A DNA stretch of 64,000 nucleotides, taken from positions 1,772,494 through 1,836,493 of the forward strand of contig JAJEKV010000105.1 of assembly GCA_021234155.1 (NCBI GenBank). Reading direction: 5' to 3'. Below the pieces are notes generated by a model that was given only the letters and a program-made list of their open reading frames with translations, was not told the DNA's origin and made no database searches. Shown here one piece after another: positions 26,761 to 62,680 of the stretch (the first letter of the stretch is position 1; each line of letters starts with the position of its first letter). Origin of the DNA: Isoetes taiwanensis (lineage: Eukaryota > Streptophyta > Lycopodiopsida > Isoetales > Isoetaceae). The position numbers and the translations under genes were made by a program.

Positions 26761-27753
26761 AAATCAATGGCTCGGAAATGGTGCACTCTAGATGTACGCA
26801 TTAGTACATCCATTTGAAATACATCACGAAATCATAGGAAAACCTTAGTGAAAAGCGCACAAAAACACAAAGAAAACCCCCGTTATTATGCTACATATTC
26901 TTGCAAGAACTAATGTAATGGCATCGAGAACGAGCTCTGTCTCACAAAATGCACCTCATCGATATGCCATGGCCAAGAAGCTTGGAGAACATCTACCATA
27001 ATCCCACGCTTAATCCTTGCCAATACTTACCTGTAATGCAAAAGTAAATCAAATCTGCTCCCTTACTATTGCATGTTACGGTTCAATGTTTTAGACCTAG
27101 AATTTCAATTTATTACAAGCATTTGATGAAGAAGCCCGGATATCTACAAATCTTAAAAGACATTATGAAAATAAATAAGGTTTTTTACATCATTAATTGC
27201 CTCCACAACCTATCAATTTCCATCCGTAGAACGGACCATACATTCGTAAGCATATCATTAACCGGGTTTACGGATAAATGCAATCTATCTTGTGTCCCTA
27301 CAGAGGTAGCAAGTTTGGCTTCGGATTCATAACCATAGTAATCGCCATAATAGCACGCAATTTTAACCAAGCTATAGTCCGGTTAACCGGCAAGCTGAAT
27401 CAAATAAAACTTCACACTCCCACGGTACTTTTACGGATATGCCCCATCATCATAGCCATGGGCGCAATGCATCGGCATCCACATATTGTTGAATCCATCG
27501 CCATGAATCGCGCAAAGGGATCTGCAAAGCAATCAAACCAAGAAATCAGTAGCAAGCATTTTGCATCTAATAAATGGCCAAGACATCGCGATCATGCATT
27601 GAAGAATACAACTATGAGAACCATCCTCATATAAACAACTTAATTGCATCCCGGTACAAAACCCATACGTTGTTTTATTATTCCACATCAAATTTATGCC
27701 CAACGAAGAGACAAAGATTGCATCATGAGAATATAATACCAAAGCATTACAAA
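26761..27753. other. Unassigned stretch
   Basis: No gene is recognised. Overlapping open frames at 27069-27634 lack motifs. This is flanking DNA of the Helitron-like pair to the right. Confidence 0.3.
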
Positions 27754-43299: not shown

Positions 43300-43511
43300 G
43301 GACGAATATTGTAGCTCAGGAGTATGGTCTTGGATGATAGTCTTGGTTAACTACCATGGGTACGTAAGTTTGGCAAATTATTGGCAAGGCAAGGCAATTG
43401 AATGGCAAGGAAAACCTTATAAAAGCTATGGGTTAAATTGTATCCTTTCAATAAAAGGTATATCTATACTTAAAAGTTTGAGATAAAAATAAAACATTAA
43501 GAGTCAATTAG
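43300..43511 (+). repeat. Segmental duplication copy 2, left part
   Basis: Same sequence as 41960-42170, ending in ATTAG (43507-43511), which is the left target-site copy of the copia insertion. Its continuation is at 49467-49715. Confidence 0.8.
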
Positions 43512-43957
43512 TGAAGAGTATTGACATGATGATGAGTTCATTGAATATAGTTGAGGTTGATTAAATGATATTGCAATGGTCTTATGAACTACTAAGATTA
43601 TTTCCAATGGTCAGATGCAATATTGAAAGTTATTTATAGTTAGACCTAAGACCTAGCTCGGTGAACAGTGTTCCCGGCCAGGTGCTTTCAAACCCAGAGA
43701 TCTAGCTGCCGACCTCATAAATCAAAGGGTAAGATTAATGGATTGCCGGAATGCGGTGATCCGAAGCAAATTTAACTTAAGCATATCTTGTACGTGGATA
43801 TATAGTTTGATCGTAATAGTGAACGAAGTTTGATGTTTGGCTTTGATATTTTCTTCGATGCTATTTGATTATTATCTGTATTTGAGATTGTGTGTGACAT
43901 TGGCTTTTTAACAAGTGTGGTTGTATAGGTTAAAGTGATAGAGAGAATCATCTAACA
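43512..43957 (+). repeat. Copia 5' LTR
   Basis: TG...CA ends. Differences from the 3' LTR cluster at 43761-43840, for example CCGAAG versus CCAGAAG and GAACGAAG versus GAACTGAAG. Confidence 0.95.
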
Positions 43958-43958
43958 G

Positions 43959-43970
43959 TGGTATCAGAGC
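43959..43970 (+). other. Primer binding site, tRNA-iMet
   Basis: TGGTATCAGAGC, complementary to the 3' end of initiator tRNA-Met, lies one base after the 5' LTR. Confidence 0.95.
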
Positions 43971-48790: not shown

Positions 48791-49001
48791 TTATGAGGAT
48801 TCAAAGTTCTAGAGGTAGTAAATACGGTTGTAAAGCTTAAAGTAACCGACCCGACATATTCATGTTTCGGTGAAAATAATACGATTTATACGGACTCAAA
48901 GAAATACGGGGGCCAGGTGCATAAAGAAATCTAACGATATATTTATTCTCCCGAAGAAGTAACACGTATACATGCTCAAAGAAATTGGACAGATATATTC
49001 A

Positions 49002-49013
49002 ATGATGGGGAAG
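49002..49013 (+). other. Polypurine tract
   Basis: ATGATGGGGAAG directly precedes the 3' LTR and is the expected primer for plus-strand DNA synthesis. Confidence 0.7.
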
Positions 49014-49461
49014 TGAAGAGTATTGACATGATGATGAGTTCATTGAATATAGTTGAGGTTGATTAAATGATATTGCAATGGTCTTATGAACTACTAAGAT
49101 TATTTCCAATGGTCAGATGCAATATTGAAAGTTATTTATAGTTAGACCTAAGACCTAGCTCGGTGAACAGTGTTCCCGGCCAGGTGCTTTCAAACCCAGA
49201 GATCTAGCTGCCGACCTCATAAATCAAAGGGTAAGATTAATGGATTGCCGGAATGCGGTGATCCAGAAGCAAATTTAACCAGAAGCATATCTTGTACAGA
49301 TATATAGTTTGATCGTAATAGTGAACTGAAGTTTCGATGTTTGTCTTTGATATTTTCTTCGATGCTATTTGATTATTATCTGTATTTGAGATTGTGTGTG
49401 ACATTGGCTTTTTAACAAGTGTGGTTGTATAGGTTAAAGTGATAGAGAGAATCATCTAACA
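49014..49461 (+). repeat. Copia 3' LTR
   Basis: Matches 43512-43957 with about six local differences. It ends TCTAACA and is followed by ATTAG. Confidence 0.95.
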
Positions 49462-49715
49462 ATTAGGGACTTAAGTTAGATAAAGGGAAACAATGGACCT
49501 TTCTTAAAGGGACCTGCATCGAAGGTGGGGACAATATCAATTAAGTAGTAGCTTTGTTCTGCGATCAGGGACCATAAGAACTAGCTGATTCTTAGCCTGA
49601 ATTACCTGCCGCTTCCAGATAACAGGAAATATGAATTGATAATTTGCCATTACCAATAGCTTCGCCAAATTTCCCAATTCTTAGCATCGATTAACCGGAT
49701 TGGGTGGTGAACTAC
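49462..49715 (+). repeat. Segmental duplication copy 2, right part
   Basis: Starts with the right target copy ATTAG, then continues the sequence that runs uninterrupted at about 42166-42480 (ACGGACCTTT..., GAATTG.TAATTTGCCATT, GGTGAACTACCAT). Confidence 0.78.
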
Positions 49716-49867
49716 CATTGAATCATTATTATGGTGACGCCCAAAGACAAGATATGGTTCCGGGGCGATCGATATTGATTTTGCACACGCCGCATTACCG
49801 CCATCCCGATTGACGTGTACGCCGACGTGTAGCCAAGCAAGTAGCACCCTAGGGGGCAACTTGCAAG
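49716..49867. other. Spacer before the LTR-like region
   Basis: No gene. It contains TAGGGGGCAACTTGCAAG, also seen near 33400. Confidence 0.3.
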
Positions 49868-51324
49868 TGTGTACACATTTAATTATGTGCACATTTACCC
49901 ATGTGTACACATTTACCCATTTGTACACATTTATCCATGTGGACACTTTATGCCACTTAGTTAATAAAGGTAAGTGGACCACACCATTTATCCCACATGC
50001 TCAAAGGGATAATGGGAAACCCTAGCCCTAACCCTTAGTCTATAAGTATAGGAAATCCTAACTTTCTATTTTCGTCCACAACCTTCTAGAACTCTGTTTT
50101 GCTTGATCCAAGAGCCCATCTCGCCTCCCAAAGTCTGTCTGAGCAGCCTAGCTCAGCAGCTTCCCTTTCTAGCTTCATCTTCGAGTAGATCTCAGAGCAT
50201 GGATGCGCTCAGCAGGAGGAGCAAGCCAAGGATGGGGGTATTTTGTCAATTCAATAGTCTAATCCGCCTCCCAGACATAGAATAAGTAGGTTTAGCCTAT
50301 TGAATTGCCCATAGCAGCCATCTAGATCTCTAGATACCAAACCATAACTAAAGAACCTAACTCTGTGATTTAGATTAAATCTCATTCTTTAGTTCTTCTA
50401 TGATATGTATGTGATAATGATCTCTGTGGACTCATTGTATTGGGAAGGGGGGTAGAGGCCTTAAAAGCCTAGTAGTATGATGCTCCTAGCCAACCCTCTT
50501 TAATGCACTATTAAATTCGGCCTGTGTACAAGATCCACATCTAGTTGTGGGTGAAAGGGCCAGACTGGCTTACAAGGAGGTTCATGTCCTGACTCATGAT
50601 CAGTTAGTAAAGCCTATCGGGGACTATTGTGCACTAGACCTAATGCTCAGCCACTGCGTGAGGGCTTTGCATGGGTTCGACACTCTTGGGGTGGTGGACA
50701 CCTTCCATGGAGTTCAAGTCGAGTACGGGCAGTGGCCCTCTAGTCACCTTGAGTCAGCATGCCAATCTCTGGAGGGAGTGATCCCTACCTGCCCCATCGG
50801 GACTGGGGAGATGCAACCCAGGAATAGCCCTTTGGCTATGCACCCGGAGGGCTACAGTCGGGTCCCAACACTTTTCAACCTACTCTGCAAAGTGTGCACA
50901 GGAGGGGCAGATGGAGTGGACTACCCTAAACCATGCTCTTATGCCAGCCAAATCCATTTGCCATGAATTCTGTCTGCAATGACTTCTGGAGACCCAAGCC
51001 GTCAGTCATCCCCGTTGAGTCTGAGCCTTGGGTAGGATCTCCATATGTGATGTGTTGATCTTTGTCTATGCAGATATGTGGAGGGCCATCCTTCGGGATG
51101 GTCATGTGATGTTGATGTTGTATACTGACATGTATGTTTACGTTTCCGCAGCTAGGTAAGCCCTAAAGGGAGACAGGGTAAAATGACCCCTTCATTCTTC
51201 CCACTGGAACTCATCAAGGTTGCAGTGATATGTGGAGGGCCCTGTATTAGTATGGAGCTGGTATGGGGGATGAACTCCTGTTTGTATACGGTGAGAGCAC
51301 CGTATACGAGTAGGAGACGTCACA
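49868..51324 (+). repeat. Probable 5' LTR of a second retrotransposon
   Basis: The right end is fixed by the sequence: GTCACA, one base, then a tRNA-iMet primer site. The left end is a guess at TGTGTACACA. Within it are five related copies of GTACACATTTA(C/T)CCAT (49868-49945), teloboxes (AAACCCTAGCCCTAACCC, 50018-50035), a TATA-like CTATAAGTATAGG (50040) and a 139-codon open frame at 50547-50966 without recognised domains. No second LTR lies in the window, so the length is unconfirmed. Confidence 0.5.
51284..51307 (+). other. Perfect hairpin just upstream of the primer site
   Basis: GTATACGGTG, loop AGAG, CACCGTATAC. A 10-bp perfect stem ends 18 bases before the primer site, at the U5 end of the LTR-like region. 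Confidence 0.85.
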
Positions 51325-51325
51325 G

Positions 51326-51337
51326 TGGTATCAGAGC
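51326..51337 (+). other. Primer binding site, tRNA-iMet
   Basis: TGGTATCAGAGC, identical to the copia primer site and likewise one base after a CA dinucleotide. Confidence 0.85.
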
Positions 51338-51533
51338 AATGTTCTTGGTGACCAAGAGCAAAGCACTGACCATGCTCCCAGTAGTACTAACTTAGTAGGA
51401 TTCTCAAACCTCAAAAAAGTGGGAAATTTTTTTTTCTCATTTTTGTAGTTATGCTAAGCTAGTAACACTTAAAAGAACTGAAAACTAAGAAAACTAAAAA
51501 GTTGATCTAAATTTTGACCTAAGGCAGGAATGT

Positions 51534-51596
51534 CTCACAGTATGCGCCAGAGCACAAACCTAAAATTTAGGATAAGCCCTGGGCGCACACCGTGAG
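51534..51596 (+). repeat. Palindrome H1 (CTCAC..GTGAG type)
   Basis: The left arm CTCACAGTATGCGCC and right arm GGGCGCACACCGTGAG are 63 bases end to end. The loop has an internal AAATTT palindrome. It is the first of four related units. Confidence 0.85.
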
Positions 51597-51745
51597 TCAC
51601 TGGCCATAATCACCTTGAAACATGATGAATTTTAACAAGGTAATATGCTAGATCGAGTTTTAAGGTAAGAATTAGATAGATTTGTATGTTACACCCCTAA
51701 GAATATGCCTAGAAATCATATAATTTAGTCTAAAATGCAAAATGT

Positions 51746-51804
51746 CTCACGGTATGCGCCAGAGCCTTGATCTGAATATTAATTCGGGCCCCTAGCGCAC
51801 TGAG
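51746..51804 (+). repeat. Palindrome H2
   Basis: The left arm is CTCACGGTATGCGCCAG; the right arm AGCGCACTGAG is shortened by a few bases. It starts 212 bases after H1. Confidence 0.75.
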
Positions 51805-51963
51805 TCAAATTGTTTAGAAAACTCTGAAGTAAGTATATGTTTTAGGTTAATAGGTGCTTTGACAGAAAAAAAAAGTAACTTAGAATTTGACCTCCGCTTA
51901 GAAAAATTGCTCCGCTTTTTGAGGCGATTTTTTGTTTTCCTCGGACATTGACGGACGTAAGAC

Positions 51964-53258
51964 ATGGCGCACACCAAAGAGACTGCTCGGGTTCCTCGAG
52001 GAGGTGAAACAGCCAGCGCCCAAGTGCAGCAGATGCTTCGGGAGCGTCTTCTCGCGGGAGGAGGCCAGTCTTCATCAGGTGGGGAGACCACTTCAGAGGA
52101 GCAAAGATTTGGCGGTGGATCCGTAGGGGATCGAGAGGAAAAGCTAACCAACACCATCGACTGTGAGCTAGGACGGAGGAGCAGAGGTGCATTCAAAGAC
52201 CCTCAACGGAAGTACTCGAGGAAATTGAAGGGGATTAATTAAATCCAACGAAGTCGCCGAGCAGATGGAGAAGGAGAAACAAGAAAAGGCAGAGCAAGAG
52301 CGGGAGGCCAAGGCACAGGAAGAGCAAAGGGAGCCCACCCCCGAGCCGACTGAGGAAGAACAGCTTGAAGCCTGGATCAAGATGCATGAGGTGAAGGAAC
52401 AAATAAGCAGGAGAAGAAAAAAAGGGTGGAAGAAGAGGAAGAGAGAAGAAAAGGAGGTCAAAGAGGCAGAAAGAAAAGAAGAAGGCAAGGGCAAAGCCGT
52501 GGAGGAGCCCAAGAGGAGGGTGAAGAAGACCCCGAACGTGAAGGTCGTCATCAAGGAACGGCCAGCTGACCAGCCCCCAACCTCCGATGACTCAGACGAC
52601 GAGGATTTCAACCCTAACCAAGAAGGAGGGAGCTCCTCCAAGCCCCCAAGTGATGAGCTTGACAGACCAGAGCGGTGCGTAGCAGATCGCCAGGGCGCAG
52701 ATACCCCCCCGCCCCTATCCAACTTGGGAGAAAGATAAGGACCCCAAGAAGCCGCCCCGACCCGAGAATCATACGTGGTAGACCATCTTAGGGTCTACCA
52801 GAAGAAGTTGAAGGCACATCATGAGTTCATGAAGAAGTGGGAGGCTTACAACTCCTACTATCAGGCGAACAAGGTCACTTTTGTTGCAGGAGGACGGCCG
52901 TCAAAGAAGCAGACTCTGAGGCCACCTCCTGAGAAGCCCATTCCCCCAAAGAAGCCAATCAAAAGGAAATCCAATTCGGTGAATCGAAAGCAATCAGCAG
53001 ATCCGACACTTCCAGAGAAGCTATGGCTTCCTAATACCCCGTGCACCGTTCGCCAGGCTGGTGAAGGAAGTTGTGCAAGAGTTCGACACCAGCATGAGGG
53101 TAACAGGCGAGATGCTGCTAGCCTTACAAGAAGTAGCCGAGCAAAAGCTAGTGCAGCATTTTGAAGACTCAACAGCATGCACTGTACACGCCAAGAGGGT
53201 GACTCTCATGAAGAAAGACATGCACCTGGCTAGTCACATTAAAGGGGAACCTCATTAA
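51964..53258 (+). CDS. Histone H3-like protein with long charged insert (frame-disrupted)
   Basis: The ATG is at 51964, 626 bases after the primer site. Residues 1-14 read MAHTKETARVPRGG, close to the H3 tail MARTKQTARKSTGG: T3, K4, T6, A7 and R8 are kept, K9 and S10 are lost. A region of about 300 residues follows, rich in Glu, Lys, Arg and Pro, probably coiled or disordered (EKEKQEKAEQEREAKAQEEQ; acidic DDSDDEDFNP). The C-terminal 70 residues (53046-53258) are an H3 histone fold: APFARLVKEVVQEF, FDTSMR loop 1, ALQEVAEQKLVQHFED (alpha 2), ACTVHAKRVTLMKKD (Cys110 and His113 equivalents kept), then MHLASHIKGE and a stop. Loop 1 has the canonical H3 length, unlike CENH3. The frame shifts near 52243, about 52738 and about 53040, by decay or sequence error. 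Four palindromes flank it, two on each side. Position after the primer site suggests a retrotransposon-borne gene; a captured or co-opted H3 is the alternative. Confidence 0.8.
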
Positions 53259-53401
53259 CTTTGTAAATAATAAATTTTGTGAATACAAAGTGTTTTGAGT
53301 AAATTATAAGTGTATAATTGTTGTCAATTAGGTTGAATTAGCAATAATTGCCTTTTGTTTTAGTCAAATCGGACATTTCAAGGCCAAATAGTGAGGAATG
53401 T

Positions 53402-53464
53402 CTCACGGTGTGCGCCAGGACCCAAAACTAAACTTTGGTTTGGCCTCCCAGCGCACACCGTGAG
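53402..53464 (+). repeat. Palindrome H3 unit, perfect stem
   Basis: CTCACGGTGTGCGC and GCGCACACCGTGAG pair perfectly over 14 bp, 63 bases end to end. It lies 143 bases after the stop of the histone-like ORF. Confidence 0.9.
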
Positions 53465-53604
53465 TCTTTCACACCGAAACTAGCCCTAAACATCTCCAAA
53501 TCGGCCAAGTAAGAGGTCAATCTTATATATCTCGGCGAGATAATCATGTTTTGACCCTTAGTTCATCTTGTTTGGACAAGTCTTGACCAAATTGGGCCAA
53601 ATGT

Positions 53605-53667
53605 CTCACAGTATACGCCAGGACCTCATCCTAAACTTTAGCTTGGCCTTCCAGCGCACGTCGTGAG
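53605..53667 (+). repeat. Palindrome H4 unit
   Basis: The left arm is CTCACAGTATACGCCAGGA, the right arm CCAGCGCACGTCGTGAG, 63 bases, starting 203 bases after the previous unit. The loop shares CTAAACTTT..TTGGCCT with it. Confidence 0.82.
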
Positions 53668-55400
53668 ACCTTTCAGCAATTTCTCTAGCATGCCACATCC
53701 AATTGACCTCAAGTTTGTTGCAATAGGTTCATTAGATAGTCCTATTCATGCTCAAACCCTTAAATTAGCTTTCCAATCCCCGTCATCATCCTACAAGTTT
53801 GCTCCCGACTTTTAGGCGATCTTTCAGCTCCCTTAGGCGCTTCAGCAACTGTTTGTTAGTCCAATCCCCTCAAGATCCATGGCAACTGCAGACTTTAGGC
53901 GATGGTACAAATACAAGTGCTCATGTAGCTAAGGCTAATGTCAATTCCATTTTCTAGATTTTCCAGAAGGAGATAGATGTCCAAGCCACTCTGCAGGGTC
54001 AGGCTAGGGGTAGGACCGCCCTTAGTAGCTCCCCTCCCCCTTGCACCGGATATTTTGTCCCCAGTGCAGTCCCTCCAAGCAGCCTTAGGTGTCTGTCCCC
54101 AACATTGCCAAATATCGACCAATAAAGCTGCTGGGTTGCTGATTACATGGTCTTGACCGCCATTAGGACCAAGTATTTCTCCTACACCCATTTGCCCTAG
54201 CCATCTTTCTTCCCACCATGCCCGTAACCCAATCGGGGAAACCTCCATCCTTGCCATGAACATAGACCCCTTAGCCTCCTCAGCAGAAGGTCCGCTCCTA
54301 TTGCAGTATCAAGCGGAGCAAGAAGAAAGAGCGAAGACGTTATCGACTCGATGATTTAAGACTACGCCGAGCTCGACCCATAACAAGAGCTGGCATTCAG
54401 CGAAAGGTGGCACCAATTCTCGAACAGGACCGGCAGACCCTCAGGATCGCTCCCCCGCTCGGGCTAGGCATTATAAGCCTAGCCCCCATCATCATCATCA
54501 ACAGCCGAGTACCTCGCTCCTAAGTGACATCCTTTAACCTCCCCGAATGCGCGAGGAGAGTACCGAGCTTTGACGAAGTTGTCGATCTTCGCGGCAACAA
54601 CCGCATCCCTAGATGACTTCATCACCGAGGCTTCCCGGACTTCCCAATTCAGTGAGAGAAGCCGACACCTACCGCAAAGGAGTCGACTTCGGATATCCAG
54701 CGCATACAACAAGATCCCAAGCAAAATGATGGAAGCTTCGGGATTCGCTTCGCCCGAAGAAGAATTTTACGCCATCCAAGAATGGATGGGGATCCGCGGG
54801 CAAGACCACAAACATTTTGATGCCGAAGTTCTTCGACACCAGCTCCCCCAGAGAGAAGAGGCTAAATCGACTGAGGCTTAATCACATCGCGACTGGGACT
54901 TTGCAAGACCTCACGAGATTGACGCCAACTTAATATGCTGGGAAGACATAGAGCCGGCGCACCGACGTATCTAAATCAGCAAGCCAGCGGGGACAGGTCA
55001 CTAAGGTATTATCTTCCCTCACCGATGGATCTAAGGATAGCCATCATACACCGCAAGTTCAGCCCAAGGGCGCAGGAAGGAGTGTTCATGCTCATCGCAC
55101 TCGTGCTTTGGTAGGCATGCTCTCGACTACTCCCAACAGCTTGACCATGTCATCCTAGTCAAGAGAACGATGGCACTTGACATCTTCAACTTCGCCGCCG
55201 CACCATACCGACGCAACGGTGGAAGACTAGCAAAGGACTGACCGACCTATACTTCCCGACGCAGGTAGAAGACTTGGTGCAAGCCTTGCAGGGCGGGTCA
55301 TCAACGAACATCCTCAGGAACTTGGGATGCTCGGTAGGAACGACCCAAGTTAAGAAGTTTCTTCAGGATAACCCATCCTATCGGCGATTCCAAGAATAGT
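53668..55400 (+). pseudogene. Degenerate second ORF of the same element (unknown)
   Basis: The region is coding-like (GC-rich against its surroundings) with broken frames. The best segment is 54570-54881, which continues in the same frame past a stop (SHRDWDFARPHEIDANLIC, DHVILVKRTMALDIFNFAAA at 55143). After one more shift it reaches YFPTQVEDLVQALQGGSSTN and FLQDNPSYRRFQE with a stop at about 55400. I do not recognise a domain. A gag-like or 'plant transposon protein' role would fit its place behind the H3-like ORF, but this is inference. No protease, integrase or RT follows, so the element is non-autonomous or truncated at 55425. Confidence 0.4.
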
Positions 55401-55449
55401 TAGACTCTTGATCCCAGAGGCATTAAGTCGTATTTAATTAAAGTGGGAC

Positions 55450-56167
55450 TCATTCCATTCCCATTTTTTTTCGGAACTCTGTTAATTTACACAAAAATAA
55501 GCACCCCGACCAAAAAACCGCCATAATTGAATTTTTTTGTCTATTAGTGTGCATCCAAGCTTTTCTTCCAGTTTTTTTTGGATAGCGTGTCGAGAACAAG
55601 AACAATGCAACGCAAAACATGCATTAGACCTATCAAGTTCTAATTGAAAAGATTCTTAGTTGAACATTTTGGCTCTATTTTCTTAGGTGGGTAGACAATA
55701 GATCACAAATTCCAACAAAAATTATGCAAATCGCTTACTTAATCACCCAAAAAATACTAGTTTTGAGATACCTTATATTTATAAATGGGCTCATTACAAT
55801 ATATATTACAGTGGGGTGAAGAGACCATAGTGGTCGATGGGCACAATCATTACACCCTCTTCACACATGAACCACCTAGTGCAAAGGGCGGCGTGGAGCT
55901 CTCTCCTAGTCATGGAGCAACTTACAGACTATAGAAATTTGTATGAGGAGTTCCTTTATGGGCCACGTGCTTGTATGTCCAACTCGATGTCACCACCCCT
56001 CTTCAAGCACCTTTCTTTAATGAAATGATCTTTTCATTGCCCCCAAGCATGTACTAGTTGGTCGAGATAAGGACCGCAAGAGACAAAATCAAATTAGTCA
56101 AGGATGCTACATGCAAAAAATAAAAAATAAAACATAGTTCTTAGGGCCATTTTGAAAAAATATGGGC
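55450..56167. other. Left interior of the TIR element
   Basis: AT-rich sequence with no recognised gene. Confidence 0.3.
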
Positions 56168-56455
56168 ATGAGAAAGGCAGCTCAAAGCCGAAACGCAGGT
56201 TTTATAGGTCGGGAAGGCCTTTCTCGACTCATGAAGTCGAGAAAGGCAGCTCAAAGCTTCTAAACGCAGGTTTTATGGTCAGAAGGCCTTTCTCGACTCT
56301 CGAAGTCGAGAAAGGCAACTCAAAGCTTAAAAAATGCAAGTTTTAGGGTCGGGAAGGCCTTTTCGACTCGCGAAATCGAGAAAGGCGTTTCAAAGCTTAA
56401 AAATGCAAGTTTGAGGGCCTTTCTCGACTCGAGAGTCGAAAAAGATAGCTTAGAG
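56168..56455. repeat. Four-copy tandem array of palindromes, about 69 bp unit
   Basis: Each unit contains GCCTTTCTCGACT...AGTCGAGAAAGGC, an inverted repeat of about 13 bp per arm, then CTCAAAGC and AACGCAGGTTTTA. The units start near 56170, 56239, 56308 and 56378. Such subterminal arrays often bind transposase. Confidence 0.85.
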
Positions 56456-57252
56456 TAAAAAAGGGGCAATTTCAAAGCTCAGAGTCCGAGAAGGTCGAAA
56501 ATGAATAACCTTCAAACATCCTATGTATTTTCTATGAAAAAATACCCTCCCCATAAATTTCCTACGTATTTTCCATGAAAAATAGACCCTCCCCATGTAT
56601 TATCTAATGGACACATATCCAATGGACCCTCCCCCTTTCTAATGGACCATACCATATAGCTATATGAAGAGGGGACTATTGGGCTCATATATAGCTATGT
56701 AAAGAGTAATGCCTAATGCACATGTAAATAGCAACATTATAACCTATGAGAGCACATTAGACCTATGCATTAAATCTATTAATATGCACTAATATGTACT
56801 TGTCCCCATTTTGTGTCTAGAACCTTCAAAATGGGTTAAACAAGGTGTAATTTATATCATGATCTATGCAAAGTTAAATTTTTACCTTAGAATAAGAATA
56901 TATGCCTAGAAAACGTTCACCATGGGAACATAATGTTTAACGGTGAACATAGTAGCACACGCCAAAATATAATCCTATATTATTAGCATTTATTTTACAC
57001 TTTCTTTTCAATGTATTATTTTAACCTTTTTTTTTCTAATACTCCACTTTTTTCCCGCCCATGCTTGAATTTTAAAATCATTTATTTTACACTTTCATTT
57101 TCAACGTATTATTTTACCCTTTTTTTTTCTAACCCCTCCCCTTTTTTCCTCCGCCCATGCTTGAATTTTTTAAACTTTGGTACATACCTTTGAGATGGGG
57201 CTTCATTTGTACCGCTTGGAAGAAGCTCCCAACGCCATAGCTCCCACCGCTT
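56456..57252. other. AT-rich interior with short repeats
   Basis: 'TATTTTC(T/C)ATGAAAAA.A..CCCTCCCCAT' recurs at 56525-56600. 'TTATTTTACACTTTC.TTTTCAA(T/C)GTATTATTTTA' recurs at 56990 and 57080. No genes. Confidence 0.5.
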
Positions 57253-58620
57253 TTACTCCACCTCCGATCCATCACCGCAGATGGATTTCACGACTTCACA
57301 AGCGCATCCATCACCGTGGGAGAAGCCTTCATCTTGCCTAGAAGCGCAGCCCTCTTCCGGCCATCGTTTCCACTTGCTTAGATGTGAAAGCACAAAAATG
57401 GAGCATCGACACGGGAAGCTCAAGCATATCTGGCGATTTGGGTATGTACCTTGCCATGGATTATTCATCGTTTTCAGATTCTTCAAAGATTTTCTTGGCA
57501 CTCCGCCATTCTCGCTACCGAAAATAGCAACAGATCCAAGATCCCCGAAAATAGCACTTTTTGAAAATACAAGGAGGGCGGATGTCTTTGGATCCAAGAA
57601 GGTGGATGCCAGCGAGCCATTTGCAGTAGGGGTTCGATGTGTGGAAAATAGGGGGTTCTTCCGGCGAAAGCTCATGGAAATAGGCGTGGAAATAGGTTCT
57701 TTACTACTTTCACCGGAAATAGGCGTGGAAACAAGCTTCGCAGGCAATCCTTCTTCAACCATCCTCAGGTTTTCGCTAGCGCCGCTGGGCTTTCTTTGCT
57801 TTTTTTGCCGCAGAATCTTTGCAAACGGTTGAGTCCGGAGGGCGCCGCAAGCCGAGGGCAAGGGTTGAAGGAAGGAAATATTTCCTGAGAATGAATTGCA
57901 AGACAGCATAAGCTCTGAGAGGCTTGTTAGATCAGAAAGGGATTGAGGGACAGAGCCGGAAAGCTGGTTGGAATGGAGCCAAGATTCTTCAGCGATCCAA
58001 TTTGGAGTGGAATTGCACCTGTAAGACTGTTGGTGGCCAAGGAAAGCTCTTGCAGGCTGCTGAGATTGGCTTGGAGAAGGCTTAATGGCGTGGACATCTT
58101 TCACGTCTGCAGCAAAAATACTTTTGGTTATATAACCAGCCTAACCTAAGAAGCTGCTTATACAAAGCTTAAAATTAAGAGATAGGAGCCTTACCCTGAA
58201 GTCGGGGGGGTTGCCAGGCGCCATGCCATCTTGGTTGGCTGTCGTGAGATTTTCGGGCCCGATATTTCCAGGTCCCTAAGTTATGGCAATAAAAAGTGCA
58301 TTAAGTCTTAAGCTTAGTTTTGGACAGATAAGAATGGCATGAATGGCCTTACCTCGAAGTTAGCCTCTATCTTGGTTGGCTGTCCCGGGATCTTGGTTGG
58401 GTTGGTAGCACCTTGAGTAGGTGTGGTCATTTGAAGATTCCAAGCCGTTAAGCTGGTTGCCATCCAAATATAGTTGCCGGAGATTTGGCAAGCTCCCAAT
58501 CTCAGGCGGAATGCCTCCGCTCAACTCGTTGGTTCCCAGCCCCAATATTTTTAACGACACAAGGCGCCCAATTGAGGCCGGTATGCTGCCTGTCAGCTTG
58601 TTGTGATAGAGCTCCCTGAA
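57253..58620 (-). pseudogene. LRR receptor-type gene fragments
   Basis: The minus strand encodes plant-type leucine-rich repeats (LxxLxLxxNxLSGxIPxxI). 58440-58618 gives ELYHNKLTGSIPASIGRL, LKILGLGTNELSGGIPPEIG and LPNLRQLYLDGNQLNG in adjoining frames. A second block at 57880-58000 gives LHSNQLSGSVPQSLSDLTSL and LSELMLSCNSFSGNI. Between and after them lies non-LRR sequence, and the 283-codon frame 57253-58104 continues with Ser/Lys-rich sequence of unknown origin. The source was probably an LRR receptor kinase or receptor-like protein; no signal peptide, membrane span or kinase remains. The whole sits inside the TIR element, suggesting capture. Confidence 0.75.
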
Positions 58621-58859
58621 TAGATAAAAACAGAGGTCATATCTGGAAGAGCAGGTGGGACATGAAGAATTTACCGCAAACTAACAGAGCCTCTTTTTTT
58701 TCCTATTTTCTGTGTATTATCCTTGGGGATTTATGTTTTCCAATTCTCGACTCACTAGTCGAGAAGAGGAGGATGGTTTATATTTTTTTTATTGGTTATT
58801 TATTTAATTAAATTAATTAAATTATTTATAATTAATTAAATTAATTATTAATTATATTA

Positions 58860-59080
58860 TTTTGGCTTTCCCCCTCCCCCTTTCCCCTCTCCCTTGCCCC
58901 TTCTTCTCCCTTGCCCCTTGCCCCCCCCTTCCTTGCCCCTTGCCCCTTCTTCTCCCCCTTCCCTTGCCCCCTTTCCCCTTGCCCCTTCTTCTCCCTTGCC
59001 CTCTTCTCCCTTGCCCCTCTTCTCCCCCTCTCTCTCACTCCCGTCTTCCCCCTTCCCCTCCCCCTTTCGATCTCACCTCG
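58860..59080. repeat. C/T-rich low-complexity tract
   Basis: Irregular repeats of 'CCCTTGCCCCTTCTTCTC' produce long frames of Pro/Leu or Arg/Gly/Glu that are not genes. Confidence 0.9.
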
Positions 59081-59861
59081 CTCAACTTTCTCAACTATTT
59101 ATTTGGAAATTCTGTAAGAAAATATTATGAACCATTCCTTGTTATATGATGTGAAATTTTGATGTCAATATGAGTCCCATTTTCAGTCCGAGTCCCAAAA
59201 TTTAAGATTTGTCCCACTTTAATTAAATACAACTTCATTGTAATAAAGTTATTATTATCAATCATATATATGTTCTTATGTTTGTCGCTTTTATCCGGAC
59301 CGTCCATTCGAGATCCGGACGGCTCACGTGGCTTTGGGACGTATCCTCTGGCCCAGATGGCTTGGGAGTTTACATATAATCCATATAGACACGCATTCTA
59401 CTGGCCCAGGTTGATCGATCGACCCGGCCGGTCCGAGATCTTACTACCACGGGCTTTGGGGCATATCGTGATGACCCGTGATGGCTTGGGAGTTTGTTTG
59501 TAGCTTATATGTAAGCGATCCTATGGTCCGTGTTGATTTGATCTTGATCGCCGGTCCGAGATCCTACGGCTCCACGTTGCTTTGGGACACATCCTACGGT
59601 GCACATGGCTTTGGGAATTATATGTAATCGATCCTACGGTCCAAAGTTGATTCGATCCCCGATCGCCGATCCGTGGATCTTACGGCTCACGTGGTTTTGA
59701 CACATATTCTACAAAGGCACATAACTTTGGGAATTATATGTAATAGATCCTATGGCTCATGTTGCGAAGATCTAAGACCCTTGATCGGGTCCAAGATCCT
59801 ACGGCCCAAGTTGAATGCTCATCCCTTAGGAAAAGGCTTTCAAAATTTTTATGGTGTGTGG

Positions 59862-59916
59862 GGGATTCGAACCCTAGCCATTAACCCCCCAACCCCCCAT
59901 TCTAACCACTAGACCA
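59862..59916 (-). repeat. tRNA-like SINE head
   Basis: On the minus strand the A-box is TGGTCTAGTGGTTAGA (59916-59901) and the B-box GGTTCGAATCC (59873-59863), perfect to the Pol III consensus. No closing acceptor stem is found, so it is SINE-like rather than a tRNA gene. Confidence 0.65.
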
Positions 59917-60005
59917 AGAATTAATTCTATGAATAATTTATGTTTCACATATACTTAAGGATAATGTTCCCATTAAGATAAAATAGACTATAACATTCTA
60001 GCTAG

Positions 60006-60290
60006 TTCAAGAAGGTTCTAGGATGTTCTAGAAGACTCTAGAAAGTTCTAGAATCTTCTAGAAAGTTCTAGAACATAAGAGAATCTAGGGGGGATGTAAG
60101 AAAATTCTTCCAGAAAGTTCCAAATTGTTCTAATAAGTTTTAGAATGTTCTAGAATATAGGGGAATCTACGGGAATGTAAGGAAATCTAGGGAAATACTT
60201 CCAGAAAGTTCTAGAATATATTGAAAGTCTTAGAATGTTCCAGAAAGTCTTAGAATATTCTAAAAAGTTCTAGAATGTAAAGGAATCCAG
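60006..60290. promoter_or_regulatory. Run of heat-shock-element pentamers
   Basis: From 60006 to 60073, alternating TTC and GAA triplets occur every 5 bases (TTC 60006, GAA 60011, TTC 60016 ... GAA 60071), 14 in a row with two one-base departures (GGA at 60021, CTC at 60036). GAA..TTC..GAA is the heat-shock factor site. Looser repeats of GAAAGTTCTAGAATG continue to about 60290. Confidence 0.5.
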
Positions 60291-60840
60291 AAGAATCTAA
60301 TAGAATATAAGAAAATCAAGAGAATCTAGGAAAATATTTACAAGCCTAAAGGAATCTCTTAAAATCTGGGGGATCTAAAGGAATCTTCATAAAATCTAAG
60401 GGAATCTAAGAAAATGTTGATGAAATCTTAGAGTATCTAAGGGAATCTTTATAGAATCTCTTTGAATCTAAGGGCAATATGATAAAATCTAAATGAATCT
60501 AAGAGAATCTAAGGGGATGTTCATAGAATCTTGGAGAATCTAGGGAAATTTAATGGAATCTAGAGGGAATCTTATAAAATTTAGAGAAATACTCACGAAC
60601 CCTCTAAGAGAACCTTGGTAGAATCTTAGAGAATCTATGAATTTCACGTAGGAACATGCTAAAACTCAAACATGCACCGTAGGACGCATTAAATTTCTTG
60701 TGTAATTATGTGTATATATTATCTGATCTATATATGTTCTTATGTTTCGAGCTTATCCGACCGTCCGTTCGAGATCCGACGGCTCACGTCGGTTTGGGAT
60801 GTATCCTACGGCCCAGATGGCCAGGGAGTTTACATATAAT

Positions 60841-61058
60841 AGGTGTACCATGGTCCTACGGTCCAGATTGAGGGGACACATCCTACGGTCCACGTGGCTT
60901 TGGGAATTATATGTAATAGATCCTACGGCTCATATTGCTTTCATATAATAGGTGTACCATGGTCCTACGGTCCAGATTGAGGGGACACATCCTACGGTCC
61001 ACGTGGCTTTGGGAATTATATGTAATAGATCCTACGGTTCATATTGCTTTCATATGGT
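60841..61058. repeat. Tandem duplication, 109 bp unit
   Basis: AGGTGTACCATGGTCCTACG and the rest of the unit at 60841-60949 recur at 60950-61058 almost unchanged. Confidence 0.9.
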
Positions 61059-61148
61059 GAGATCTTGAACGTTGATGGTGAGATCCTAAGGCTCATATTG
61101 AATGCTCGATTTCCTTAAGGAAAGGCTTTTAAAACTTTTATGTTATTG

Positions 61149-61205
61149 GGGATTCAAACCCCGGGTCCCCAACCTCCCAAACCCCCCACTCTAACCACTA
61201 GACCA
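61149..61205 (-). repeat. tRNA-like SINE head, second copy
   Basis: On the minus strand TGGTCTAGTGGTTAGAG and GGTTTGAATCCCC correspond to A- and B-boxes, in the same place as in copy 1. Confidence 0.6.
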
Positions 61206-61905
61206 AGCATTAATTCTATGAAGAATTTATGTTTCAAATATACTTAAGGGTAATGTTCTAATTAAGATAAAATAGACTATAATATTCTAGGATGTTTTGA
61301 AAGTTTAAAAATATTCCAGAAAGTTGTAAAATGTTCTAGAAATTTCTAGAATGTAAGGGAATCCGTGAGAATTAAAGGGAATATAAGGAAATCTCATAAA
61401 TTGTAAGAGAATCTAGGAAAATATACAAGTCTAACGGAATCTCTTAAAATCTAATTGAATCTAAGGGAATCTTCATAATATCTAAGGGAATTTAAGAAAA
61501 TCTTGATAAATCTTAGAGTTTTTTAAGATTTTGCAAAAGAGCTTACAATAGAATGTTCTAAAATGTTTCATAATAAAGGTGTACAATATAAATCTTGAAA
61601 AAAAAAAATATTCTAGATGCTCGTGGCAAGCACCTCAGTCTAAAAATAGAAAATATTTTAAAAATGTTGCACAGATCCAAAATAGATTATTTTAGAAGGT
61701 TTTAAATGCTCATGGGTAAGCACCCAATCAAAATAGAAAATTCTAAGAGAACCTAGGGGAATCTTCATGAATGCTATATAATACAAAGAATGTTGAAGAA
61801 TATAGAGGAATCACAAGAGAATCTCAGTAGAATCGTTGGTCACCGTAAGAACATGCTAAAACTGGAACAATGCGCCGTAGGACGTATTAATTTTCTTGTA
61901 TATAT

Positions 61906-62680
61906 ATATATAGAAGCCAAGACCTGATCCAAAGACCAAACCTAGGCACCCAACTCTGACAAGGATGAACCTAGCCAGGTTGGACTTATCGGTTCCAAAT
62001 CAATGAAAGGATAACCTTATAGGTAATACCAAGTGAGCCATACAGCAAGCCAGACTTCAAAGATGCAAAACAAACGCATGTTCAGCTTTTATTCAGTACA
62101 TTAAGCCAAATTCTTGTAGACATATTGTACTATGTTGATGCATTGTCATACCATCATGCATGTTATTAGATTGCTTAGATACCAATTTATTAAGACCAGG
62201 TTCTAAAACCTATGCCCATCTAATAAGCCAGTGAGAGAAGTCAGAGCCTTAGTGAATACAATATTGTAATACTACACAGTCGGACCGTCATAAGGTAAAT
62301 AGAAAACACCTTATATTCATTCTAACTCTTTGTCATGAATAATAGTATTATGCTAAAATGCTCAGCAATGCCAATAGATCCTTTAGACTAAATGTATACA
62401 GTTGCATTCGTTCATAAAACAGTCAATATTATATAACCAATGTCTGCAATTCATCTATAATAATATTTCATTTTTTAACTTATGAAACCAAACAGAGTGC
62501 TCATGGGAGAAACTCAAAGATATGTACGTTTTTTATTTAAGAAAGCCAAAAGACGTTTTTCAAAATTATTTTCCATTAATACTTGGTAAATATAGATGGC
62601 AGAGGTAGCCCTTTCTTAAACAGATATGGCAAACCAGATATGTCTTTAAGACTGCAAATGCATAAAACAGTAGTATTATC
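61906..62680. other. Unassigned stretch
   Basis: No gene or repeat is recognised. It may be intron or downstream sequence of a minus-strand gene to the right. Confidence 0.3.

Follow-up and report, generated by a model that had tools for sequence, protein, structure and literature searches.

A histone H3-fusion reading frame ahead of gag in chromodomain Ty3/gypsy retrotransposons of Isoetes taiwanensis

That an LTR retrotransposon of Isoetes taiwanensis encodes its own variant of histone H3 is well supported by an element architecture seen in one example of each of four subfamilies, by copy number and by low dN/dS. The window, by which we mean the whole 64,000-nucleotide stretch of DNA analysed (C914:1772494-1836493, in a searched genome of 1,658,258,908 bases and 1,110 contigs), contains a disrupted member of subfamily A, which belongs to a large family of chromodomain Ty3/gypsy elements with an H3 fusion as their first reading frame, ORF1. 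The observation of an H3 fusion made for this window in a first-pass annotation is confirmed as real, and it extends beyond that earlier description. The mobile DNA seems to bring along a chromatin component of its own. We regard the structure of the element as genuine, recurrent and under selection, and its action as inferred.

The element copy in the window

The features of the window copy are the following.

49732..51324, + strand: 5' LTR, ending ...CGTCACA, known from an LTR-LTR match to C1034 and the end motif; the start is approximate (diverged TG...GACG) and was set by comparison with L013
51326..51337, + strand: primer binding site TGGTATCAGAGC; B and D elements have the same site 1 nt past the LTR
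51526..51604, + strand: RNA hairpin (z -3.8) ahead of ORF1, its left arms also in A pieces
51738..51812, + strand: second, weaker hairpin-like repeat (z -1.1, folding no better than chance)
51964..53258, + strand: reading region of the ORF1 H3 fusion, interrupted by two stops (52240, 52736) and frame changes
51964..51990, + strand: H3-type N-terminal tail MAHTKETAR, which in sister copies reads MARTKQTAR(K/V)
51991..53000, + strand: charged linker from tail to fold, of differing length among copies
53001..53255, + strand: complete histone H3 fold (Pfam and PDB matches)
53394..53468, + strand: strong RNA hairpin (z -6.3) past the end of ORF1
53597..53671, + strand: second downstream hairpin (z -2.4)
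53879..55424, + strand: decayed ORF2, a protein without assignment beginning MATADFRRWY (DNA match to L015 and L018)
55425..61912, + strand: tandem-repeat-rich stretch, common to C914:1991000-2010800

The reading region opens at ATG 51964 with MAHTKETARVPRGG, and the stop at 53256-53258 follows the fold directly. In a profile search the fold (53001-53255) matches Pfam Histone with an E value of 4.4e-23; the best profile is a histone, so the first-pass annotation's own refuting condition, that the best profile hits would lie outside histone H3, does not apply. The match to PDB H3.3 (E 1.7e-21) spans H3 residues 52-134, and identity to one host H3 is 53% across 83 residues, ungapped. The annotation had described an H3-like tail start and an H3 fold end within one ORF region, with K4, T6 and R8 of the tail and the Cys110/His113 equivalents of the fold retained; all of this is borne out, the fold being complete. 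Also as described, the primer site, which we take to be of the tRNA-iMet type, begins at 51326, its end lying 626 bases upstream of the ATG. The tail is changed at R2, Q5, K9 and S10; the annotated loss of K9 and S10 is correct for the window copy, but K9 is retained in many sister copies.

Tail, linker and fold of the window copy each occupy a separate frame, and the annotation had raised the prospect that tail and fold would prove to belong to unrelated ORFs in other copies. Among 20 A copies fetched, which were chosen for long frames, 14 have tail and fold in a common open frame: 11 with the exact MARTKQTAR start (L045, L046, L047, L049, L050, L052, L055-L058 and L061) and three with one change in it (L051, L053 and L062), the start being lost or changed further in the other six (L048, L054, L059, L060, L063 and L064). 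The H3 ORF is likewise found again between LTRs in other element copies.

Beyond ORF1, tblastn matches to ORF2 fall at 54079-55319, and no match appears anywhere in the window when pieces of gag and pol from A and B serve as tblastn queries. Positions 48919-61912 of the window (~13 kb, including DNA 5' of the LTR) are 93-97% alike to L013/L014 (C914:1991000-2010800), at a distance of ~170 kb on that contig. This likeness suggests a segmental duplication as opposed to two insertions.

Two further observations concern the sequence around the element. RNA hairpins with TCTCACRGTRTRCGCC arms flank ORF1 on both sides in A copies; the left arms are present in A pieces L013, L016, L017 and L018, no match to the arms occurs in those pieces of B, C and D that were scanned, and a looser match lies at window position 26939. 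Further upstream, a 450-base repeat (43510-43957 versus 49012-49461, 97.8% alike) stands beside a second primer site of the tRNA-iMet type at 43959, the two together probably representing another LTR element.

Architecture, recurrence and selection across four subfamilies

One example of each of the four subfamilies, A to D, was read for its full element order, and in all four the H3-fusion ORF1 precedes gag, reverse transcriptase (RT), RNase H, integrase and chromodomain, with LTR pairs in the examples of A, B and D. The A element on C1034 has LTRs 91.6% alike and carries ORF1, ORF2, gag (2.4e-16), pol and chromodomain. The B element, found on C1045, has a primer site and LTRs that are 95.6% alike; it carries ORF1, ORF2, ORF3, gag, pol (RVT_1 1.5e-38) and chromodomain (1.4e-7), and a 5-bp target duplication, TAAGG, is seen on both sides of this one element. 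For D on C913 the LTRs are 96.1% alike across the part fetched and the ORF order is the same, as it is for C on C1007, where neither an LTR pair nor a primer site was found within the pieces fetched. The A, B and D elements have the structure of chromoviruses, namely LTRs, a primer binding site and a gag-PR-RT-RH-IN-chromodomain order. Two of the three cage aromatics are missing from each of the four chromodomains read (HP1 alignment by eye), which fits the published definition of group II chromodomains (PMC3350952).

The RT regions of A and B are 80% identical and their ORF2 products 25% identical (E 6e-7), which argues for one ancestral element for the two. ORF2 (~470 aa) is common to A-D, being seen at L040:56-1456, L041, L067 and L015:85-1232. 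Neither ORF2 nor ORF3 has a Pfam match, and the B ORF3 has no match in A pieces.

The four subfamilies have ORF1s of the following kinds. Subfamily A, the window lineage, has the tail MARTKQTAR(K/V), a charged linker and a diverged fold; B starts with MAITK, MANTK or MAPTK and has an N-domain of ~230 residues and a near-canonical fold; C starts with MEEVKQ or METVKQ, and D with MARTKGTK. The H3 tail extends up to residue 8 or 9 in A and is absent from the B and C copies read. The ORF1 linker is charged and lysine-rich, and amounts in A to some 300 residues. At ~409-467 aa, as against the 136 residues of canonical H3, ORF1 has neither the canonical length nor the full tail. Open-frame ORF1s of 409-450 aa match Pfam Histone at 1.3e-40 (B), 2.9e-41 (D) and 1.1e-24 (A).

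Two fold queries against the genome scored at least 285 element folds. The best 150 of 8,648 rough candidates for the A-fold query all have E < 1e-41, and 136 of these 150 matches listed are stop-free; the canonical H3 query returned, among its 150 matches listed (142 of them stop-free), 15 host H3 genes (identity 97-99%) and another 135 places (72-87%), both sets of matches favouring intact copies. The 150 A places and the 135 non-host places cannot overlap, since every A place listed has 84% or more identity to the A fold, and identity between A folds and host H3 is 49-56%.

The coding pattern for MARTKQTAR has 1,888 exact matches in the genome, its reversed control none. MARTKQTARK accounts for 1,051 of these, and an H3-like continuation (K9 followed by a Ser/Thr-type codon) for at most 25, the 15 host genes included. 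When six pieces with tail matches were read by eye, three (L076, L078 and L079) had recognizable ORF1 or H3 remnants and three (L075, L077 and L080) had neither, so that not every MARTKQTAR match is a proven element.

Selection was gauged from Nei-Gojobori counts on 24 element rows and three host H3 rows, the copies having been picked for open frames. Within A, the fold gives a median pS of 0.682, pN of 0.084 and dN/dS of 0.066 (66 pairs, 35 finite), and the N-part a median dN/dS of 0.201 (61 finite). For the 36 pairs within B, the medians are 0.028 for the fold versus 0.110 for the N-part, and host H3 compared with host H3 gives 0.038 (3 pairs); with many pairs saturated, these dN/dS estimates are good to an order of magnitude. 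Between B and C, the median fold pS is 0.96 and pN 0.082, the N-part pN is 0.479, and none of the ratios is finite. To judge from these codon counts, the fold is shown to have been under strong purifying selection while the elements multiplied.

Among the tail starts, when all other codons are kept constant, Lys is encoded at position 4 by 1,888 of 1,902; the figure for Gln at position 5 is 1,888 of 2,137, and for Ala at position 7 it is 1,888 of 2,346. Such counts track lineages as opposed to independent events, and those of Gln5 variants may be inflated by C-to-T deamination decay. On these genome matches K4 is shown to be near-invariant in tail-bearing copies.

The kind of H3 encoded and its possible use

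All 24 element fold rows align to host H3 with no gaps. Identity to host H3 is 86-90% for the 12 B-D folds, which agree with it at 9/9 listed DNA-contact and 7/7 listed H3-H3 positions, the listed core positions being altered only conservatively. C and D retain H87 and L90, a plant H3.3 mark, and B has F87. The 12 A folds differ from host H3 at R63, L103, L109, R129 and K56, among others, with P at 63, H/Y at 103, A/T at 109 and H/Y at 129. With contact and core residues so altered, the A fold may not form ordinary nucleosomes.

A comparison with centromeric H3, for which the plant CENH3 and CENP-A references were provisional, finds that of the 40 positions at which the majority of A departs from host H3, 11 have the residue of a plant CENH3 (five in all three references, six in Arabidopsis alone); human CENP-A matches four of the 40, and B-D match CENH3 at two of nine differences. 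When the changed residues are shuffled, the mean number of CENH3 matches is 3.5, and 11 or more occur in a fraction of 0.0006. In a fold tree with long branches and provisional references, A and two plant CENH3s lie across a 98/89 branch from human CENP-A, and a single clade of A with B-D is mildly rejected (p-AU 0.043). The 11 residues are shared with plant CENH3, and the tree tentatively puts A on that side; A ORF1 is unlike plant CENH3 in the canonical loop 1, in the ~300-residue linker and in being encoded by a mobile element. Loop 1 of A has the canonical H3 length, two residues shorter than that of aligned plant CENH3, and this, together with the provisional references and the long branches, disfavours a CENH3 origin of A. 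The CENH3-like residues of the A fold thus need confirmation. No host CENH3 was identified among the 150 best matches to a provisional Arabidopsis CENH3 fold; in the matches listed, the 15 host H3 genes came first and the rest were other histone-fold places.

We consider it reasonably probable that ORF1 is an element-encoded H3 variant that would enter host nucleosomes or tetrasomes and thereby tether or package element DNA. The ORF1 fold would pair with host H4, and the ORF1-H4 pair would join tetrasomes or nucleosomes, such that the N-terminal domain or tail would be displayed on chromatin. While the element passes through the nuclear stage of its life cycle, the likeliest use would be either to anchor its nuclear complex or cDNA on chromatin or to pack its own DNA as chromatin. 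In A, where the K4 tail is retained as well, tail readers might be involved. Entry into nucleosomes or tetrasomes is favoured because the constraint on the B fold is about that on host H3, which points to H4, DNA and chaperones as partners.

What all four subfamilies have in common is the fold and not the tail, and a pure tail decoy is not the common function, because B and C, without an H3 tail, retain a near-canonical fold. This bears on an account as a histone mimic, in which the MARTKQTAR(K) end would sequester the writers, erasers and readers of H3K4/K9 and weaken silencing of the element, which we regard as fairly unlikely; equally unlikely is its companion proposal that the fold merely stabilizes such a decoy or keeps it nuclear. 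The near-invariance of Lys4 (1,888 of 1,902 starts) and the K9 found in 1,051 of 1,888, with a real-H3-like Ser/Thr-type continuation in at most 25, speak for a mimic, but 837 of the 1,888 exact tails do not have Lys at position 9, the B and C copies read are tailless (MAITK..., MEEVKQ...) with folds still 86-90% host-like, and the lowest dN/dS is that of tailless B.

A packaging or scaffold role, with the H3 fold as a nucleic-acid-binding or dimerizing module within the particle and outside host nucleosomes, would accord with the charged, lysine-rich linker, with the position of ORF1 ahead of gag and with some altered DNA-contact and core positions of A. Charge-based binding would, however, have no need of the near-unchanged H3-H3, DNA-contact and core positions listed for B-D, and such a role strikes us as quite improbable. 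That the fold is a hitch-hiking pseudogene, a fragment of host H3 captured once and passively amplified, is most improbable: many copies are indeed decayed, the window copy and three of the six tail-match pieces among them, but frames are open, synonymous sites between subfamilies are near-saturated with pN low, and the pre-gag position is identical in four subfamilies.

Several points count against the favoured reading of ORF1 as a nucleosome- or tetrasome-entering variant: the altered A positions, the broken window copy with neither gag nor pol found in the window, the choice of open-frame copies and the saturated pairs in the selection estimates, the three tail-match pieces with neither ORF1 nor H3 recognizable, and the poor modelling of the H3 part. 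In a 12-row AlphaFold model of B ORF1, residues 11-50 and 131-230 are confident (pLDDT ~79-89), residues 51-90 have pLDDT 60-77 and residues 91-130 pLDDT 41-53, and the H3 part is of low confidence (36-49); the ORF2 model is unreliable (mean pLDDT 40). A Foldseek search gave nothing at E <= 0.001 (best 0.35 in the PDB, 0.015 among viral models). The best VIA-align Z was 5.2, for an R3H domain, and no fold was therefore named. Viral contigs scanned with the A alignment contained no relative.

Known systems and regional distribution

The closest parallel comes from a fungus. A family of hAT DNA transposons in Pyrenophora tritici-repentis carries an H3-like gene, H3L; the reference contains 26 such genes, closely alike and with transcripts, and the question of effects on chromatin is raised in that study (PMC3538342). 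In the fungal as in the Isoetes elements, an H3-like ORF is paired with a second ORF to which no function is assigned, and both multiply along with the transposon. The fungal element is, on the other hand, a DNA transposon with tens of near-identical recent copies, and its H3L is without a long N-terminal fusion; the Isoetes elements are LTR chromoviruses in many diverged subfamilies, with near-saturated synonymous sites and measured purifying selection. The first-pass annotation had known of no described example, a statement that fails for transposons generally, given the fungal case (PMC3538342), and stands for LTR retrotransposons within the literature searched. That literature, subscription papers and preprints aside, yielded no histone encoded by an LTR retrotransposon, and the main texts of the I. 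taiwanensis (PMC8566536) and I. sinensis genome papers, so far as these were available, showed no use of the word “histone”.

Like plant chromoviruses, the Isoetes elements have LTRs, a tRNA-iMet-type primer site, a gag with a CCHC knuckle, PR-RT-RH-IN and a chromodomain; unlike them, they have an H3-fusion ORF and an ORF2 without assigned role ahead of gag. Some chromoviruses read histone marks via the chromodomain. Core histone variants are also encoded by viruses, including giant viruses and, for H4, bracovirus; the likeness lies in a mobile genome with a core histone variant, and the difference in these being DNA viruses and not LTR retrotransposons. The accessible portions of five sources (PMC9033089, PMC12786077, PMC7264820, PMC3350952 and PMC2864245) describe no H3-bearing chromovirus. 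One of them does describe an orchid Ty3/gypsy lineage with an AlkB-type demethylase ORF (PMC12786077), which resembles the Isoetes elements in having an extra ORF akin to a host epigenetic enzyme in a plant Ty3/gypsy element, the orchid cargo being an RNA demethylase and the Isoetes cargo a core histone.

Within these searches, the LTR chromovirus setting, the fusion architecture and the many diverged subfamilies appear to be new, as do the selection, the retained K4 tail and the CENH3-like residues. Here a chromodomain and a histone H3 occur on one mobile DNA. The system would provide a natural H3 in which K4 is retained and S10 lost, it would bear on how retrotransposons choose or make a chromatin niche, and transposon-driven change in nucleosome composition would become directly testable.

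A bolder proposal, which we hold to be doubtful, is that lineage A carries a CENH3-like centromeric histone with an H3-type tail that seeds or finds a chromatin state, and so accumulates regionally. Were this true, the plant would harbour selfish H3 genes, some still live and others decayed, in numbers from many hundreds into the thousands, and these would compete, or would once have competed, with host histones. Clustering was examined for places on contigs of known length, namely 75 of the 150 listed A places and 71 of the 135 listed non-host places (B, C and D mixed). None of 5,000 uniform placements brought places as near together as those of A, a set comprising the closest relatives of the window copy, for which local duplication can add to clustering; B-D places are not clearly clustered (499/5,000). 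After merging of neighbours at 0.5, 1 and 2 Mb on contigs > 8 Mb, the corresponding counts out of 2,000 were 1, 4 and 4 (A) and 305, 345 and 702 (B-D). The A copies may thus be grouped by region, which needs confirmation. A role in targeting would accord with such clustering, but shuffling labels directly between A and B-D places gives no significant difference (557/5,000).

Start lineages other than MARTKQTAR occur in the genome (G000) as well, for example MARTKCTAR and MARTKQTYR. A further type of ORF1, MARTKQTARKYNERP..., is seen in L079 (G000:C217:131000-132595), which is one of three tail matches on C217, at 120974, 126783 and 132564, spaced ~5.8 kb apart.
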